This document shows, in pieces, positions 5,447 through 40,241 of a stretch of DNA of 40,241 nucleotides; the first letter of the stretch is position 1; the number at the start of each line of letters is the position of its first letter. The notes beneath the pieces were generated by a model. That model was given only the letters and a program-made list of their open reading frames with translations. It made no database searches and was not told the DNA's origin. The DNA is taken from positions 1 through 40,241 of the forward strand of contig JADZEO010000163.1 of assembly GCA_020850475.1 (NCBI GenBank), in the 5' to 3' direction. This DNA comes from Bdellovibrionales bacterium (GTDB lineage Bacteria > Bdellovibrionota > Bdellovibrionia > Bdellovibrionales > UBA1609). Made by a program: the position numbers and the translations under genes.

Positions 5447-6994
5447 ATGCTCGACTCCAACCTTCGCGACCAACTCAAAGAACTCTTTAGCAAACTCACA
5501 GACCCGGTGACCTTGCGCGTGTCAACCAGTCAGCACGAGAGCCAAGAGGAACTGCTCGAGATGCTCAATGAGGTGGCGAGCACCTCCACCAAGTTAAATG
5601 TTGTGGTTTCAGATTCCTTGACGAGCAGTACCCCTTACTTCGAAGTTGAAGGTCGGCTGGCCAAGGGCAAGATCGGCTTCCGCGGCATCCCTGGTGGGCA
5701 CGAGTTTTCGTCGCTGATACTGGCAATCCTTCATGTGGACGGCAAAGGCAAGCAGCCAGATCCCGGCATCACTCAGCGAATCAGTCGAATTAAAGGACCG
5801 GTCCGTCTGAAAACTTACATTTCTTTGTCGTGCGAAAACTGTCCTGAGGTCGTACAGGCGCTCAATTTGATGGCAACCCATCACCCGGACTTTAAACACG
5901 AGATGGTCGACGGTGGCATGGTGGTGTCAGAAGTCGAGGCGCTGGGAATTCAGGGCGTTCCGAGCGTAATGAATGACAACCAGCTTGTGCATTCGGGAAA
6001 AGCGCAACTGATTGATTTGGTCACCAAACTCGAAGAGCTTTTCGGCAAATCTTCCGACCAAGCTGTTCAACAAGATCTCGGACTCTTTGATGTTGTAGTC
6101 ATTGGCGGCGGACCCGCAGGAGCCACTTCGGCCATTTATAGCGTTCGCAAAGGACTCAAAACTGCTGTCGTGGCTGAGCGTCTCGGGGGCCAGCTCCAAG
6201 AGACCAAGGGAATTGAAAATATGATTTCGGTTCCTTACACTGAGGGCGTAAAGCTCGCCGCCCAACTCGGTGAGCACTTGGCAAGTTATCCCGTCCAAGT
6301 TTTTGAACACCGGCGCGTGAGCCAAATCACCGGCAGCGCGATTAAGCGCATTCAATTGGAAAGCGGCGAGTTTTTGTCGGCCAAGGCGGTGATAATTGCG
6401 ACCGGAGCCAAGTGGCGCCAACTCGGAATTCCCGGAGAGAAGGAACACATCGGCCTGGGCGTGGCCTTTTGCGCTCACTGCGACGGCCCCTTCTACAAGG
6501 GCAAGCGCGTGGCCGTGGTAGGTGGTGGCAACTCTGGGGTCGAGGCCGCAATTGATCTCGCTGGAATTGCCACCGAGGTGACTTTGTTTGAGTACAATCA
6601 AAATTTAAAGGCGGATGGGGTGCTCATCGAAAAGCTCAAAGCTCTACCTAACGCCAAGATTATAACCAACGCCAAACCGATTCGAGTCCTCGGCAACGGC
6701 AAGTCGGTGCATGGCTTGGAATTTCAGGACCGCGCCACCAACCAGAATCACCAACTTGAAATCGATGGCGTGTTTGTTCAAATCGGCCTGTTACCGAACA
6801 CTCAATTTCTGAAGAATCAGTTGAAGCTGACTCCCTTTGGAGAAATTGAGGTTGATGCCCGAGGACGAACTTCGGTTCCCGGAATTTATGCCGCCGGCGA
6901 CGTCACGACGATTCCCTTTAAGCAAATCGTCGTTGCTATGGGCGACGGCGCTAAAGTTGCCCTCACTGCATTCGAGGACCGCCTTCACTCGTGA
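5447..6994 (+). CDS. ahpF: AhpF, alkyl hydroperoxide reductase subunit F
   Basis: A 515-residue FAD/NADH disulfide reductase that regenerates AhpC. I chose the ATG at 5447 because the sequence MLDSNLRDQLK aligns with the known AhpF N terminus and an AAAGGA site sits eight bases upstream; the frame is open to 5378. The N-terminal double thioredoxin-fold domain carries Cys129/Cys132 (SCENCPEV). The FAD motif GGGPAG lies near residues 220-225, the redox pair Cys342/Cys345 in FCAHCDGP, the NADH motif GGGNSG near 359-364, and the terminal FAD motif in IYAAGDVT. All catalytic elements are intact, and the Cys129/132 numbering equals E. coli AhpF. Confidence 0.97.
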   Translation: MLDSNLRDQLKELFSKLTDPVTLRVSTSQHESQEELLEMLNEVASTSTKLNVVVSDSLTSSTPYFEVEGRLAKGKIGFRGIPGGHEFSSLILAILHVDGKGKQPDPGITQRISRIKGPVRLKTYISLSCENCPEVVQALNLMATHHPDFKHEMVDGGMVVSEVEALGIQGVPSVMNDNQLVHSGKAQLIDLVTKLEELFGKSSDQAVQQDLGLFDVVVIGGGPAGATSAIYSVRKGLKTAVVAERLGGQLQETKGIENMISVPYTEGVKLAAQLGEHLASYPVQVFEHRRVSQITGSAIKRIQLESGEFLSAKAVIIATGAKWRQLGIPGEKEHIGLGVAFCAHCDGPFYKGKRVAVVGGGNSGVEAAIDLAGIATEVTLFEYNQNLKADGVLIEKLKALPNAKIITNAKPIRVLGNGKSVHGLEFQDRATNQNHQLEIDGVFVQIGLLPNTQFLKNQLKLTPFGEIEVDARGRTSVPGIYAAGDVTTIPFKQIVVAMGDGAKVALTAFEDRLHS

Positions 6995-8837: not shown

Positions 8838-10286
8838 TCAGGTGTTGCAAAAGGTCTCGTGAACTTGCTCTTCAGGTTGGGCGGGCCGACCGAGCTCCTC
8901 TCGATCAACCGACAATGAGAAGGGTGCTACGAGCACGCTCATGAGCTCTTCAAAGGGATTCCAATTCTGGTGATCCACCACGGCGCGAATCGCTCTTTCA
9001 ACCAAATGATTGCGAGGAATAAATAAAGGATTCGCCCGATCCAACTGCTGGCGCACCACCTCGGGCTTCATCGATGGCGTCAAGACCTGTTTGCGCCACT
9101 CTTGAGTCCACAGAACGACGTCCGGCTGTTGCCAGAATCCGCTGCGCGGGCTTTCCCCCATGACAACCGCACCCAGCTCGCGAAACACTTGAGTAAAGTC
9201 GGCCTGGTGGAGTTCCATGAGATCAAGCAGTCGTTCCGTGACCGCCGAGTTCGACACCAAGGTCTTCTTGGCCATTTCCTCTTGGTAATAGCCCGTGTAT
9301 CGCGGCAAAAATCCAATCAGGAGCTTTTCCAAATGAGTCGTCGTCTCCGATTCACTTCCCGGAACAAACGACAAAAAACATCCGGCCAGTGATCCCAGGT
9401 TCCACTGGGCAATCTGCGGCTGATTCTTGTAAGCATACCGACCCGCATGGTCGATCGAACTGAAGACCGCATTTCGCTTAAAGCCCTCCATAAAGGCACA
9501 AGGACCGTAGTCAAGAGTCTCCCCCGACACAAAAGTGTTGTCGGTGTTCATAACTCCGTGGATAAAACCCAAACTCATCCAGCGTGCGATTAAGCGCGCT
9601 TGGCGATCAAGAATCCGCTCAAACAACCCCAAGTACCCTTCGCGATCCTTCGGCAAGTCCGAATGGTGTCGGTCAATCACGTAGTCGGCGAGAATCTGCA
9701 GCGCCTCACGATCATTGCGAGCTGCGAAATGTTCAAAGGTTCCCACTCTCACATGGCTCGAGGCCACCCTGACCAGAATCGCTCCTGGTTCGCTGCGGTC
9801 ACGCCACACTTCTTCGCCCGTGAGGATAATCGCCAAACTTCGCGAAGTCGGGACCCCGAGCGCGTGCATCGCCTCACTAACCAGATATTCACGAATCACC
9901 GCACTCAGAGTCGCTCGACCATCGCCCGCTCGCGAAAACTGGGTTGCTCCCGACCCTTTGAGGTGAACATCGCGTAACTTTCCGTGGAGGTCTCGCACCT
10001 CCCCCAGCAGTAGTGCTCGGCCATCGCCCAAATTGGGATTGAATTGCCCGAACTGATGGCCGGAATAAGCCTGAGCCACGGGCTGAGCACCAGGGTTAAG
10101 CACGGCCCCAGAAAAGACTCGGGCCAGGTCATCACTTTCCCAGTGAGCCTGGTCAATTCCCAGCTCTGCTCCCAATGCGGCATTCCACCGAACCAACTGT
10201 GGCCTTGGAAACCGCGTGGGTTCAATTCTTTGATAAAATCTCTCGGGAAGGCTGCAATAAGTATATTCAAAGGAGATGCTCGGCAT
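8838..10286 (-). CDS. selO: SelO/YdiU protein adenylyltransferase
   Basis: A 482-residue pseudokinase-fold AMPylase of the SelO family, which transfers AMP to protein Ser/Thr/Tyr and protects against oxidative stress in E. coli. Family landmarks are present: AYSGHQFGQF, LKGSGATQFSR, RDGRATL-type loop, and GFIHGVMNTDN carrying the catalytic Asn/Asp. Length matches E. coli YdiU (478). The C terminus ends FCNT with Cys480 at the third position from the end, the place of selenocysteine or redox Cys in SelO homologues. The start follows only a weak AGGGT site. It lies near the peroxide locus, although not in an operon with it. Confidence 0.95.
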   Translation of the reverse strand: MPSISFEYTYCSLPERFYQRIEPTRFPRPQLVRWNAALGAELGIDQAHWESDDLARVFSGAVLNPGAQPVAQAYSGHQFGQFNPNLGDGRALLLGEVRDLHGKLRDVHLKGSGATQFSRAGDGRATLSAVIREYLVSEAMHALGVPTSRSLAIILTGEEVWRDRSEPGAILVRVASSHVRVGTFEHFAARNDREALQILADYVIDRHHSDLPKDREGYLGLFERILDRQARLIARWMSLGFIHGVMNTDNTFVSGETLDYGPCAFMEGFKRNAVFSSIDHAGRYAYKNQPQIAQWNLGSLAGCFLSFVPGSESETTTHLEKLLIGFLPRYTGYYQEEMAKKTLVSNSAVTERLLDLMELHQADFTQVFRELGAVVMGESPRSGFWQQPDVVLWTQEWRKQVLTPSMKPEVVRQQLDRANPLFIPRNHLVERAIRAVVDHQNWNPFEELMSVLVAPFSLSVDREELGRPAQPEEQVHETFCNT

Positions 10287-35411: not shown

Positions 35412-35828
35412 GTGAAAAAATTAAATCATCAAAGACCACCATGGATTTATGTGTTGGCTGCATTTTTAATATTGTTTGGCCTTCTAACAATTAAAGAGGG
35501 TGGTTCAGTTTTATTTTTTGACTCTACCGCAAGAGCTGAGGCTGGTAATTATGTGCCCCTTGTGTTGTGGTTTAACTTCCTCGCGGGTTTCTTTTATATC
35601 GCCGCAGGTATAGGCGTTTTTATAAGTGCAATTTGGACCAGACGCTTGTCCCTTATTATAGCAGGATCTTCCGCAGTAATTTTAGCGGCACTCTTAGTCC
35701 ACATATTAACTGGAGGACTTTACGAGACCAGAACATTAATTGCGATGACATTGAGGGTCACTATTTGGACGTTTACGTCCTTCATATTAACAAAAAATAA
35801 ACATTTACAACAAAGGAGTCATACATGA
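35412..35828 (+). CDS. Four-helix membrane protein, unknown function
   Basis: A 138-residue integral membrane protein with four hydrophobic segments (roughly residues 12-35, 48-72, 80-100 and 108-127). Starts at GTG after a weak AGAAAG site. It overlaps the cupin gene by four bases and follows the chalcone-isomerase-like gene by 33. It may belong to the same transcript or start a second unit. No family recognised. Confidence 0.65.
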   Translation: MKKLNHQRPPWIYVLAAFLILFGLLTIKEGGSVLFFDSTARAEAGNYVPLVLWFNFLAGFFYIAAGIGVFISAIWTRRLSLIIAGSSAVILAALLVHILTGGLYETRTLIAMTLRVTIWTFTSFILTKNKHLQQRSHT

Positions 35829-36121
35829 GCGCGAGAGGTTCAATTAAAGACATGGTCTCATACAAACAAGAGGGCAAATCAATCAATGTTCTCTTTGCAG
35901 AAGGCTTCAAAGCCGTGGGCATTGGTTTATTAGCAATACAAAAACTTGAAAAACACAGCACATCGACACCTGCATTTCTGTTAGTTTTAGAGGGAAGTGT
36001 TGAGTTCCAGCTTGATGGAACGAAGTGCATATTGAACAGCCAGGATTTTTTTAAAATCCCACCAAGTCAAGAGCACGAAATTACTGCGTTAGAAAATTCA
36101 AAAATGATTTTAATAAAATAA
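35825..36121 (+). CDS. Small cupin-domain protein
   Basis: A 98-residue single cupin. A beta-barrel pattern is seen in PAFLLVLEGSVEFQLDG, ILNSQDFFKIPPSQEHEITA. His in EHEITA and the acidic/His positions match cupin motif 2; motif 1 has only STSTPAF where His-x-His would be, so the metal site may be incomplete. The ATG follows AAAGGAG inside the previous gene's end. Ten bases separate it from the next membrane protein. Confidence 0.75.
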   Translation: MSARGSIKDMVSYKQEGKSINVLFAEGFKAVGIGLLAIQKLEKHSTSTPAFLLVLEGSVEFQLDGTKCILNSQDFFKIPPSQEHEITALENSKMILIK

Positions 36122-36131
36122 GGAGGCAATT

Positions 36132-36542
36132 ATGCACGGAAAGAAAAATATAGTTGTTGGGTTGTTCATTATGGCCGGTTTTATGCTTTATGGATTTTTA
36201 CTTATTTATTGGCGAGACTTCGCAGCTGATGCTGCGGAGTGGGCTGCAGCATATGGCAATGGGAAACATTTCGAGGCCAGACTTGCGCATGTACACGGCA
36301 ACCTTTTTGCTTTTTTGAATATACTGATTGGGTATCTTCTTTTCAAATTAGACATCGGTGATCAACAAAAGAAAATCGTGTCGTGGTTGGGTGTTATTGG
36401 CATCTTAATGCCGGTGGGAATTTTGATGGAACTTATTCTTAACGCATCACCGATTTTTGTCTTGGTCGGCGCAGTCAGCATGACAGCGAGTGTGTTTTTG
36501 CTGGGCGTATTTGTGGCGAAATCGAAAAAAGTGATTTTATAA
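36132..36542 (+). CDS. Four-helix membrane protein, second of the cluster
   Basis: A 136-residue integral membrane protein with four hydrophobic segments (about 8-27, 55-72, 84-103, 108-130) and a conserved-looking ARLAHVHGNLFAF motif with two His near the second helix. It follows AAGGAGG. A start ten bases after the cupin suggests co-expression. Function not recognised. Confidence 0.7.
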   Translation: MHGKKNIVVGLFIMAGFMLYGFLLIYWRDFAADAAEWAAAYGNGKHFEARLAHVHGNLFAFLNILIGYLLFKLDIGDQQKKIVSWLGVIGILMPVGILMELILNASPIFVLVGAVSMTASVFLLGVFVAKSKKVIL

Positions 36543-37022: not shown

Positions 37023-37401
37023 CTTCTTAACAGAGATGCAATGTGAACCGCATTTATGCTGGAGAGAAATCTGAACGAGGGTGTTCGACTCTCGCCACCA
37101 TCTAACCAACTCAATGGATAGGCGAACACCTTCTTAAAAATTTTGGCCCAGTGATTCTGCAGACTTACGAGCCAGCACTGGACGCTGGTTCGCTTAAAAA
37201 AATGGTGGAGGTATTTTTTCGCCTCTAACCCCTTGATTTTCCTCACACTGGGCCTCGTTGGGCTTCATATAAATATTAAATCCTGAAAAGGGCCTTGGGT
37301 GAAATGTCACATTTTTTCGAAGAAATGTGAAGTTTGGCAACTACCGAGGCGAATAGGGATATCGTCACCCAAAACTGCCAAATTTGACATTTTTAATATT
37401 C
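37023..37401. other. Island-junction intergenic region with tRNA-like and structured elements
   Basis: No gene is supported here. A stretch at 37071-37105 resembles the 3' end of a tRNA or tmRNA (T-loop-like GTTCGACT, then CTCGCCACCA and ACCA). GGTGTTCG (37080-37087) pairs with CGAACACC (37123-37130). A near-perfect 24-base palindrome lies at 37307-37330. Inverted repeats 37295-37302/37365-37372 and 37333-37339/37376-37382 interleave in a pseudoknot-like order. Confidence 0.45.
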
Positions 37402-37426
37402 TTACCCAATATGGGTATTTGGGTAA
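37402..37426. promoter_or_regulatory. 7-11-7 inverted repeat upstream of the OLD nuclease gene
   Basis: TTACCCA, 11 bases, TGGGTAA. The same element, with the same spacing and similar flanks, recurs at 39351-39375 upstream of the AbiEi-like gene. A TTGACA at 37384-37389 just before it could be a -35 box whose -10 lies in the repeat. Confidence 0.7.
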
Positions 37427-37477
37427 TTTATTTAAAAATACCTTCTGCATGCAATTTGTTGCTCAAATACTTTGCAT

Positions 37478-37561
37478 ATGAAATTACCCATGTTGGATAA
37501 CCAAATACTGAATGATTTTGTTGCAGATGGTCCTGTGAGGGATGGGGATGAATGGAAATAG
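37478..37561 (+). CDS. Possible leader peptide overlapping the OLD gene start
   Basis: A 27-codon frame from ATG 37478 to TAG 37559-37561. It reads MKLPMLDNQILNDFVADGPV then RDGDEWK, and overlaps the OLD start (37552) by ten bases. The product is acidic with a hydrophobic face, not random in look, but there is no ribosome site. If translated it could couple to or control OLD translation. Low confidence. Confidence 0.3.
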   Translation: MKLPMLDNQILNDFVADGPVRDGDEWK

Positions 37562-39333
37562 TTAAAATTCAAATTGAGCGGTTTAAAGGAATTAGAGATC
37601 TTGAGGTTTCGGTTCCAAGCACCTTGCAGCTAATTGCTGGAGCAAATAACTCTGGCAAGTCGACATTTATGCAGGCTCTTGATCTCTTTTTCAGTGGAGT
37701 CGATTCTCAAATTGAGTGCAACTTGTTTCAGCCCAAGAACCAGTACTATGGAAAGGAAAGCCCCAGGGCCCTTACCACAATAAAAATTCACTTCTCTAAA
37801 TTAACAACTAATGAAAAAAATGACTTTAAGGAAGCATTACTTTCCAGAACTAATTCCTTTTGGTGTCAGCTAAAAATATCAAGGACTGGTCAAGTTAAGG
37901 TGGTCTGCTCTGGTGTTGCAGAAGCAAAATTTATCTATGAGAAATTGATTTCTAAATTTACAGTTTTTCATATTCCAGTCCTACGAGTTTCCCAACATGG
38001 CTTTTCTGACACCGAGTCTAGAAGGTTGATGAAGGCAGTATCAGAAGTACTGATCCGTAAACGGCCAGGCCCAAAATCAAGCGATCAAAAAAGATTTGAA
38101 TCTGAGACCAAGAGATTAAAGAAGCTAATAGCAAAAGTTTTTATTGATGCTAAAGGCTCTGCTGGATACCTTTTACCCTCCGAGTCCGAAATCCAATTCG
38201 AGTTTCCAAATAACTCTGATCTACTTGATTCTATTTTAGATAAGATTTGGATAAAGTCTCGCCCCAAGGATGGATTAACTCTCAAAGAAGAAGGAACTGG
38301 TTATCAGTCGCTTTTGGCATTAGGTCTCCTCAAGCATATTGCAAACCAAGAAAGTTCTAGACGAAATCAAAATCTACTCATTCTGCTTGAAGAACCTGAA
38401 GCCTTTCTACATCCTCAATACCAGAGGCGGGTTGCGGAATACCTTGAAGACATTTCAAAATCTGCCCAAATTTTTGTATCTACTCACTCGCCTACAATTA
38501 TTGATGCTACAGATGTTCAAAATGTCATTCGTCTAGAGCGAAATTTTTCAGGGTTGAAATTGAATTGGCATCCCGAAACTATGTCGGAAAAAACAAAAGG
38601 TAATCTATCAAGATGGTGTGATTCAAAGAACAGCGAACTAATCTTCTCTGACAGAGTTATTTTCTGCGAAGGTCCATCTGATGTTAGCGTGGTCAAAAAA
38701 ATCATACTCAGCATCAAGGATCTATCATCATTGGTATCTAATATTTCTGTAATTTCAATGGATAGTAGGGATAATGGAGACAAATTTGCCGAGCTAGTGG
38801 CGCGATTCAACATCCCTTCTTTATTCATTTTCGATAGGGATATTCATAGTGGAGATCGTGCTACCTTAAAGAAAATGTGTGAGACCTTTTCATCAAAACT
38901 TTCACAGGCAGATTATACGAAGCTAGATAAGTGTAAACCCGTAACTAATGACTACAATGAAAATATGGCTCTTCGTGATACTGCAAATCAGGTATTGAGC
39001 AAGAGACATATTTTTTGCTTGAGCTCAGATATTGAATGCGCACTAGTAACTGCTTATAACAAAGACAAAACTATTCGTACACTTCTCAATTTACAAGTCA
39101 TTGATCAAGCCACATCTGAAAGTCTAGGCAAGTCCGTGGGGGTTGATTTTCATGTTGAAATAAACAAAGCAATTGGGTCAAAGGGTTGGCATGGGGCATC
39201 CGCTAAAAACAAAATTAAACCCCACTTTGCTGGACTTATAGTTGACGAGCTAGGGACTGAGTTCAACCAAAATAGCGACCTTTTGAGCCTTCGCAAAGCA
39301 ATCAGAGAATTCCTTTCGTCTAAGAAACACTAG
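37552..39333 (+). CDS. OLD-family nuclease (AAA ATPase plus Toprim)
   Basis: A 593-residue OLD-type endonuclease. The N-terminal ABC/AAA-like ATPase has Walker A GANNSGKST (30-38), a signature-like TGYQSLLALGLL, Walker B LLEEPEAFLHP (near 278-288) and STHSPTIID. The C-terminal Toprim domain has VIFCEGPSDV (about 370) and FIFDRD (about 426) carrying the metal-binding acidic residues. OLD proteins act in phage exclusion. No UvrD helicase (GajB) is adjacent, so it is not a Gabija pair; it looks like a solitary, class 1-like OLD or a component of this locus. The ATG follows GGGGA. Confidence 0.9.
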   Translation: MEIVKIQIERFKGIRDLEVSVPSTLQLIAGANNSGKSTFMQALDLFFSGVDSQIECNLFQPKNQYYGKESPRALTTIKIHFSKLTTNEKNDFKEALLSRTNSFWCQLKISRTGQVKVVCSGVAEAKFIYEKLISKFTVFHIPVLRVSQHGFSDTESRRLMKAVSEVLIRKRPGPKSSDQKRFESETKRLKKLIAKVFIDAKGSAGYLLPSESEIQFEFPNNSDLLDSILDKIWIKSRPKDGLTLKEEGTGYQSLLALGLLKHIANQESSRRNQNLLILLEEPEAFLHPQYQRRVAEYLEDISKSAQIFVSTHSPTIIDATDVQNVIRLERNFSGLKLNWHPETMSEKTKGNLSRWCDSKNSELIFSDRVIFCEGPSDVSVVKKIILSIKDLSSLVSNISVISMDSRDNGDKFAELVARFNIPSLFIFDRDIHSGDRATLKKMCETFSSKLSQADYTKLDKCKPVTNDYNENMALRDTANQVLSKRHIFCLSSDIECALVTAYNKDKTIRTLLNLQVIDQATSESLGKSVGVDFHVEINKAIGSKGWHGASAKNKIKPHFAGLIVDELGTEFNQNSDLLSLRKAIREFLSSKKH

Positions 39334-39350
39334 ACAATATTTTAATTTTC

Positions 39351-39375
39351 TTACCCAGTTGCATTTAATGGGTAA
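39351..39375. promoter_or_regulatory. 7-11-7 inverted repeat upstream of the AbiEi-like gene
   Basis: TTACCCA, 11 bases, TGGGTAA, identical in layout to the site at 37402-37426, with similar AT-rich flanks. A candidate promoter crosses it: TTGCAT (39359-39364), 17 bases, TAAAAT (39382-39387). This would start transcription close to the ATG at 39394, giving a near-leaderless message. Confidence 0.75.
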
Positions 39376-39393
39376 TAATATTAAAATACAGGT

Positions 39394-39981
39394 ATGAAAA
39401 ACACGAAAAAGGCTTTCGAAAAGCTGTTTAAAAAACCCGCTTTTTCTACAAAAGATGCCAAAGCAGTTGGAATCAGTGCGGCCAGTCTCTCCTATTATTC
39501 AAAAATGGGCTTTATTGAAAGGGTGTCCCATGGGGTTTATCGCAACCCCAACTTTGAAAGCTCTGCTCCATTCGAGTGGCAAGACCTTCTTGAAACTGCA
39601 CAGAGCATCCCTGAAGGAACCATCTGTCTGATTTCGGCTCTAGCATACTATGGTCTTACCCAGGAAATTCAAAGACAGTATTGGGTTGCTGTCCCTCACG
39701 AAATGGGGCTGATTAAACGACCAAAAACTAAGATCATTAGAACCCGCAACTTCAAGCTGGGTCGACAACAACTTAAACTTGGTGAATATAAGACTTTCAT
39801 CTACGACAAAGAACGATGTGTAGTTGATGCCTTCAAAAAACTTTCAAAAGAATCTGCTATGCATTCTCTTAAGGCATACCTGAAGAGAACAGACGATCAT
39901 AAGCCTGATGTCTCAAAACTTGTGAAATATGCAAAAGAGCTTCGGGTCGATCTACTTCCATATATCGAGGCATTGACATGA
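39394..39981 (+). CDS. abiEi: AbiEi-type antitoxin (type IV toxin-antitoxin) with winged helix
   Basis: A 195-residue protein. The N-terminal winged helix (residues about 12-55: FSTKDAKAVGISAASLSYYS, MGFIERVSHGVYR) is followed by the AbiEi C-terminal domain (ICLISALAYYGLTQEIQRQY and the IYDKERCVVDAFKKLS motif). AbiEi proteins repress their own operon through inverted repeats and neutralise the nucleotidyltransferase toxin AbiEii in phage abortive infection. Its stop overlaps the start of the next gene by four bases. Confidence 0.88.
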   Translation: MKNTKKAFEKLFKKPAFSTKDAKAVGISAASLSYYSKMGFIERVSHGVYRNPNFESSAPFEWQDLLETAQSIPEGTICLISALAYYGLTQEIQRQYWVAVPHEMGLIKRPKTKIIRTRNFKLGRQQLKLGEYKTFIYDKERCVVDAFKKLSKESAMHSLKAYLKRTDDHKPDVSKLVKYAKELRVDLLPYIEALT

Positions 39982-40202
39982 GCAAAGCAGCTGGAAAATC
40001 AATCGAGCAATCAATTAAAGAAAAAGTTAAATCAATCGCTCAAAAGCAAAATAGAACATTCAACGATGTTTGGCAGGAGGTGGTTCTTGAAAGATGGTTG
40101 GCCCGCCTCGCAAGTGTCCGATTTCACCAATTTGACCACTTGGATTTCACCACATCTGACCACCCGTCAGGGTGGCTGGCGGACCGAAGGGACGCATGTT
40201 AG
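39978..40202 (+). pseudogene. abiEii: AbiEii-type toxin, 5' fragment truncated by an insertion
   Basis: It starts on ATGA overlap with the antitoxin. The first 45 or so residues (IEQSIKEKVKSIAQKQNRTF followed by WQEVVLERWLARLAS) match the N terminus of AbiEii nucleotidyltransferases. After about 40114 the frame runs into sequence of a different character and stops at 40202, giving 74 residues. The nucleotidyltransferase active site is missing. The rest may lie beyond the insertion, outside the window. Confidence 0.7.
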
Positions 40203-40241
40203 TTTTCACCATCCTCGGCGGCAGTCAATTGTTTCTTGGCG
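40115..40241. mobile_element. Probable end of an IS21-like insertion sequence (partial)
   Basis: The AbiEii frame breaks at a TGTCCG sequence. GATTTCACCA then occurs at 40120-40129 and 40143-40152, followed by TTTGACCAC and TCTGACCAC, giving a 23-24-base repeat. Repeated subterminal motifs and TG termini are typical of IS21-family ends. The sequence is GC-richer than the neighbouring island. The element continues past the window, so no transposase is visible. Confidence 0.55.

Follow-up and report, generated by a model that had tools for sequence, protein, structure and literature searches.

Putative AbiEi operators precede both an OLD nuclease gene and abiEi in a Bdellovibrionales genome, and a single AbiEi residue covaries with the operator sequence

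The locus lies in the last 3 kb of the window, which is the whole stretch of 40,241 nucleotides of a Bdellovibrionales contig that was analyzed. It consists of the end of a mobile island, an OLD nuclease gene, the antitoxin gene abiEi, and the beginning of the toxin gene abiEii. No tRNA was found in the window. The OLD-family ATPase/Toprim nuclease (37552–39333, + strand) is an intact protein of 593 residues, with Pfam matches to AAA_15 (5.8e-33) and OLD-like_TOPRIM (1.6e-12), a PADLOC match to Old (2e-39), and the Class 1 OLD 6p74 as the best PDB match (1.9e-13). As in the Class 1 OLDs P2 Old and T. scotoductus OLD (6p74; PMC10568477), an ABC ATPase and a Toprim domain are combined in one protein, and there is no helicase or reverse-transcriptase partner. 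The gene stands singly between the island-end DNA and abiEi, and no UvrD-like helicase or reverse transcriptase gene adjoins it. Gabija was rejected, as the next gene downstream is abiEi and not a GajB helicase. In published descriptions, Class 1 OLDs occur as lone genes with no other defence genes nearby (PMC10568477), whereas the window OLD adjoins AbiE and lies behind its operator, with abiEi beginning 60 bp past the OLD stop codon. The control of Class 1 OLD nucleases, and whether they defend alone, is an open question (PMC10568477).

AbiEi (39394–39981, + strand) is an intact antitoxin/repressor of 195 residues (PADLOC AbiEi, 1e-68; Pfam AbiEi_4, 32.6 bits against a cut-off of 25). Its predicted structure (pLDDT 91.7) was best matched by the fold of 6y8q AbiEi (E 8e-12). 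Two hallmarks of a type IV toxin–antitoxin system were found, namely an AbiEi-family antitoxin with a winged helix-turn-helix and a C-terminal domain, and an inverted-repeat operator that overlaps the abiE promoter. The third, an intact DUF1814 nucleotidyltransferase toxin AbiEii downstream, was missing. The abiEii gene overlaps abiEi (ATGA) and comprises only the first 45 codons (39978–40114, + strand), which are 80% identical to residues 4–47 of the 286-residue toxin of genome G193. It is broken by an insertion-sequence end (TGTCCGATTTCACC...; 40115–40241), which was also found at the ends of contigs C46 and C162, next to different flanking DNA. The remainder of abiEii was sought in the assembly and was not found; it could lie on an unassembled piece, but this copy is interrupted either way. 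The first-pass annotation had counted AbiEii as part of the unit; as a correction, this third gene is not intact.

The sequence TTACCCA-N11-TGGGTAA was present without mismatches at 37402–37426, 5′ of OLD, and at 39351–39375, 5′ of AbiEi. This identity had been noted in the first-pass annotation and was exact, although the true palindromes are longer: both 25-nt cores are embedded in 47-bp palindromes (37391–37437 and 39340–39386), with a site footprint of ~49 bp. The palindrome at 39338–39388 reads TATTTTAATTTTCTTACCCA-N11-TGGGTAATAATATTAAAATA. When the two 47-bp sites were compared, the arms were identical at 31/36 positions and the spacers at 2/11 (Fisher p = 6e-5). It is therefore the arms, not the whole block, that resemble each other, which fits a kept protein-binding site. 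The 50-nt flanks of the two palindromes were dissimilar as well. Given these flanks and the dissimilar spacers, we rejected the possibility that the abiE promoter had recently been duplicated as a block.

Within the whole 3.9-Mb genome, only three exact copies of TTACCCA-N11-TGGGTAA were found, two of them being the window pair. The third (C170:423-447; G000, L003) falls inside the coding region for an Abi_C-domain protein, with an HsdS-like gene on one side and an HsdR-like gene on the other. A+T-rich outer arms are missing from this copy, and it probably arose by chance. Matches with two mismatches stayed at background level, the reversed pattern gave no exact match in the genome, and scanning the loci whose half-sites are very short yielded background only. 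The idea that AbiEi controls a larger regulon in this genome was rejected, as no extra site was found except the copy in C170. Exact matches also occurred in other genomes. The one in G058 resembles a terminator, and G063, G195, G241, and G350 are genomes without a match to this AbiEi. The matches in G350 (C43:83794; L144) and G241 (C56:9577; L143) had no AbiEi nearby and showed the odd three-half-site form TTACCCA-N3-TGGG...-TGGGTAA, as at the OLD site.

The upstream regions of AbiEi were compared in 80 loci encoding relatives of the window protein (41–86% identical), drawn from Bdellovibrionota, Chlamydiota, Verrucomicrobiota, Legionella, and others. No relatives were found in viral contigs, and a phage search returned two distant matches only. 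An N11-spaced palindrome was located just 5′ of AbiEi in 75 of the 77 loci with scorable upstream DNA, generally with a core of the ACCCA/ACTCA type, and palindromes of this spacing scoring at least 10 appeared in 0.13% of shuffled upstream DNA. A weight matrix was then built from the 75 operators of other genomes, with the window excluded. The site before OLD scored 32.1 bits and the site before AbiEi 28.6 bits, compared to 2.7 bits for the next best window position; the true operators, which are the training set of the matrix, have score quartiles of ~30, 35, and 39 bits. These scores support the assignment of both window sites as putative AbiEi-type operators. The competing reading, that the match is due to chance or marks sites of an unrelated regulator, could draw on the third exact copy within a coding sequence and on the several exact matches in other genomes that are unrelated (terminator, coding DNA). 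However, scores of 32 and 29 bits against 2.7, from a matrix trained on other genomes, refute a chance match for practical purposes, and the window sites also fit the residue–base code described below. We consider this reading extremely improbable.

The common operator layout was ACCCA-cTTGACttaaa-TGGGT, with the −35 box within the spacer, as in most AbiEi relatives, and the −10 box where the right arm ends. Counted from the first right-arm base, the AbiEi start codon lay 25 nt away in 51 loci, which was the commonest spacing and is also that of the window AbiEi; operator-to-start spacing was the same in most relatives (~60 related loci). At the window abiEi, the operator (39340–39386) covers a promoter (39359–39387, + strand) with the −35 box TTGCAT (39359–39364) in the spacer and the −10 box TAAAAT (39382–39387), which ends ~6 nt before the ATG at 39394. 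Given a 25-nt distance from right arm to start codon with the −10 box at the arm end, the window abiEi message is probably leaderless, and the same probably holds for abiE messages across the AbiEi family.

Residue 102 of AbiEi (window numbering), which belongs to the motif W-I/V-A-V-P-H, covaried with the central base of ACnCA half-sites. This residue showed the strongest association of all AbiEi columns (z 32, compared to 10 for the next column). His102 was accompanied by C in 66/66 proteins, Asn102 by T in 23 of 26, and Arg or Lys102 by A in all five. The three Asn exceptions were L124, where the register was mis-set, L130, which was mixed, and L009, which had A. On a maximum-likelihood tree of 94 AbiEi proteins, in which L124 was scored as T after correction of its register, the state changes ~10 times, and residue and base switched together in 8/8 independent pairs (sign test p = 0.008). 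The nearest kin illustrate the switch: His is paired with ACCCA in the window and L059, and Asn102 with CCTCA in their sister pair, L060 and L061. This covariation argues that AbiEi recognizes the middle base of ACnCA through residue 102, a one-residue code outside the winged helix. In the predicted structure, residue 102 lies just past a strand of the C-terminal half. Its position is consistent with the reported need for full-length AbiEi in DNA binding (PMC7319586). His102 is present in the window AbiEi (codon 39697–39699), and C is found in all four window half-sites, which links this AbiEi to the site before OLD. As the half-sites carry the base predicted by His102, AbiEi should bind 5′ of OLD, and we consider it very probable that it does so in the cell. 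The proposal of the first-pass annotation that the repeat is an AbiEi operator thus held up, on both the retention of the palindrome 5′ of AbiEi in the scorable loci and the fit of the half-sites to His102.

Control of OLD from this site is a separate matter. The operator before OLD (37391–37437, core 37402–37426) has an extra, third GGGTA half-site in its spacer and, unlike the AbiEi operators, no −35 box there, and it lies 132 nt from the OLD start codon, compared to 25 nt at AbiEi. A candidate −35 box, TTGACA (37384–37389, + strand), was read from the sequence, and a weak −10 box, CAATAT (37407–37412), would fall inside the operator. A promoter scan upstream of OLD gave no passing promoter, with TTGACA/CAATAT under the consensus threshold; this pair is the likeliest candidate for an OLD promoter. 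The OLD leader also contains TTACCCA-N3-TGGATAA (37484–37500), with one mismatch to TTACCCA-N3-TGGGTAA, and this half-site pair is possibly auxiliary. A short open frame of 27 codons plus stop (37478–37561, + strand), likewise read from the sequence, overlaps the OLD start. It may encode a leader peptide or be due to chance, and it could couple OLD translation.

The pairing of OLD with AbiEi was seen in one genome only, among 369 genomes of the phylum, in which the genus is represented once, and 80 AbiEi loci, in collections that may omit near relatives. Relatives of OLD were found in only two other genomes of the phylum: G205, with a full-length solo gene (55% identical) without the operator, and G362, with a fragment at a contig end. 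No OLD relative was found within the fetched DNA (up to 8 kb each side) of any of the 80 AbiEi loci. A conserved OLD–AbiE system was therefore rejected, as no second case was found in either set. The first-pass annotation had gone further and described OLD, AbiEi, and AbiEii as one composite, jointly controlled unit. Besides the lack of OLD at the other AbiEi loci, the solo OLD of G205 and the truncated toxin speak against this description, and the pair of repeats was not conserved in related loci, an outcome which that annotation had itself named as refuting the unit.

The surroundings of the locus point to its origin. The end of the mobile island (37200–37338) consists of the core TGGTGGAGGT and ~130 bp, and is conserved in other Bdellovibrionota, with identities of 94% in G191, 87% in G264, and 97% over 90 bp in G198 and G359. 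The core TGGTGGAGGT is similar to the 3′ ends of tmRNA genes, and in G171 a partial copy of it lies ~140 bp from an intact tmRNA. However, it matches the end of this genome's own tmRNA over 9 nt only, so that tmRNA can be proposed only tentatively as the target of these islands. In two other loci (L059 and L035), the AbiEi operator and abiE follow immediately after a similar island end, and there is no OLD; a tyrosine integrase adjoins in L035. In G264, the island end is followed directly by an 18-nt stretch identical to window 39339–39356. The simplest reading is that ~37339–39338, i.e., OLD together with its operator, was inserted between the island end and the AbiE operator.

The same comparisons bear on an alternative explanation of the 37402 site, in which it is a relic AbiE operator that once stood beside the island end. 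OLD would have been inserted behind it and would be transcribed from elsewhere, and AbiEi might bind without meaningful control. The abutting 18 nt in G264 fit this explanation, as do the lack of a −35 box in the spacer of the OLD site and its distance from the start codon. Moreover, complete or partial orphan operators were found at the island-end position in G191, G305, and G264, where type-1 AbiEi is absent. An operator can thus outlive its use. On the other hand, the relics are degraded (15 bits in G264 and 10 bits in G191), whereas both half-sites of the OLD site are perfect and it has the higher arm score of the window pair. We regard a mere relic as unlikely, though worth serious consideration.

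Extra AbiEi-type operators were also found elsewhere, in G198/G359 and in L100. In G198 (L146:1542-1588) and G359 (L147:6341-6387), a 27-bit type-1 operator was found, with no type-1 AbiEi in either genome. It is flanked by a gene of 150 residues (59% identical to window 36132–36542) and by a distant AbiEi (27%), which has another palindrome of its own, and a cupin gene like window 35825–36121 adjoins it. In the Chlamydiota locus L100, a 31.6-bit AbiEi-type operator (5833–5879) lies directly past the AbiEii stop codon, with a weaker copy at 9130. In four loci (L157, L161, L160, and L163), the island end is followed by a series of palindromes of different AbiEi types. Such arrangements suggest a hot spot at the island end where AbiE modules are exchanged.

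It could also be argued that the operators are recombination seams at which toxin–antitoxin and defence cassettes are swapped, so that the duplicate would be a scar of OLD gain and any regulation a by-product. Junctions lie at or within operators in the window, in G191 and G305, and in G264, where half an operator gives way to another AbiE; the position of the L100 operator directly past the toxin stop codon agrees with this. However, homologous recombination works poorly on arms of only 18 nt that flank a diverged spacer, and the operators themselves have no associated recombinase. We consider this explanation quite improbable.

The explanation that we prefer, with moderate confidence, is that AbiEi has lost its toxin and acts as a repressor of both its own gene and OLD, which is carried as cargo. 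Both palindromes would be binding sites of the AbiEi encoded in the window. At 39351, AbiEi would cover its own promoter and autorepress the leaderless abiE message, and at 37402 it would bind the equivalent site over the only recognizable OLD promoter and repress OLD. OLD would have come as a ~2-kb insert between the mobile-island end and the AbiE operator, and an insertion sequence would later have cut off the AbiEii toxin, leaving AbiEi as the repressor of itself and OLD. Repression of OLD taken by itself is only somewhat favored over its absence. Stress or phage infection might lift such repression. The points against control of OLD are the single genome, the orphan operators elsewhere, the spacer without a −35 box, the 132-nt distance, and the lack of a scanned promoter. 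Our confidence in this control was kept moderate mainly because operators can outlive their use. It is a more tentative suggestion, and one we would not favor at present, that AbiEi is now a stand-alone OLD repressor, i.e., an antitoxin kept after toxin loss that recognizes its sites via residue 102 and silences a harmful DNA-cutting defence gene until infection.

Comparison with the AbiE type IV system of Streptococcus agalactiae (6y8q; PMC3985639, PMC7319586) showed the same two-domain fold of the AbiEi monomer, even though the S. agalactiae structure is only 22% identical to the window AbiEi. The bicistron with overlapping start and the ~49-bp inverted-repeat operator over the promoter are also the same; the S. 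agalactiae operator consists of two 23-bp repeats 3 bp apart (23+3+23 bp; PMC7319586). Unlike S. agalactiae AbiE, the window has a second operator before an unrelated nuclease gene and a truncated toxin gene. In Streptococcus suis, AbiEi binds and represses the SezAT promoter on ICESsuHN105 (PMC11062541), and AbiEi likewise acts there on a second gene set of the same mobile element via its promoter. The S. suis target is a type II toxin–antitoxin system and oriT, as shown by gel shift and ChIP (PMC11062541), whereas the window target is a Class 1-like OLD, proposed from sequence only. That AbiEi can control a further gene set is therefore already known, and the new elements here are the proposed OLD target and the residue-102 code, for neither of which an earlier account was found in the literature searched. 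BrxR and RptR (PMC9122601, PMC12255303) are likewise local DNA-binding repressors of neighboring defence genes, but they are dedicated regulators, whereas AbiEi belongs to a type IV toxin–antitoxin pair as its antitoxin.

Under the residue-102 code, a residue that determines specificity would lie in the C-terminal half of AbiEi. The code offers a one-residue, one-base test of AbiEi specificity, in which His102Asn is expected to prefer ACTCA over ACCCA, and a route to predicting AbiEi regulons from sequence. An OLD gene behind an antitoxin operator would provide a direct handle on how Class 1 OLD nucleases are restrained. If AbiEi is indeed a stand-alone OLD repressor, the locus would represent a path from a toxin–antitoxin antitoxin to a defence regulator.
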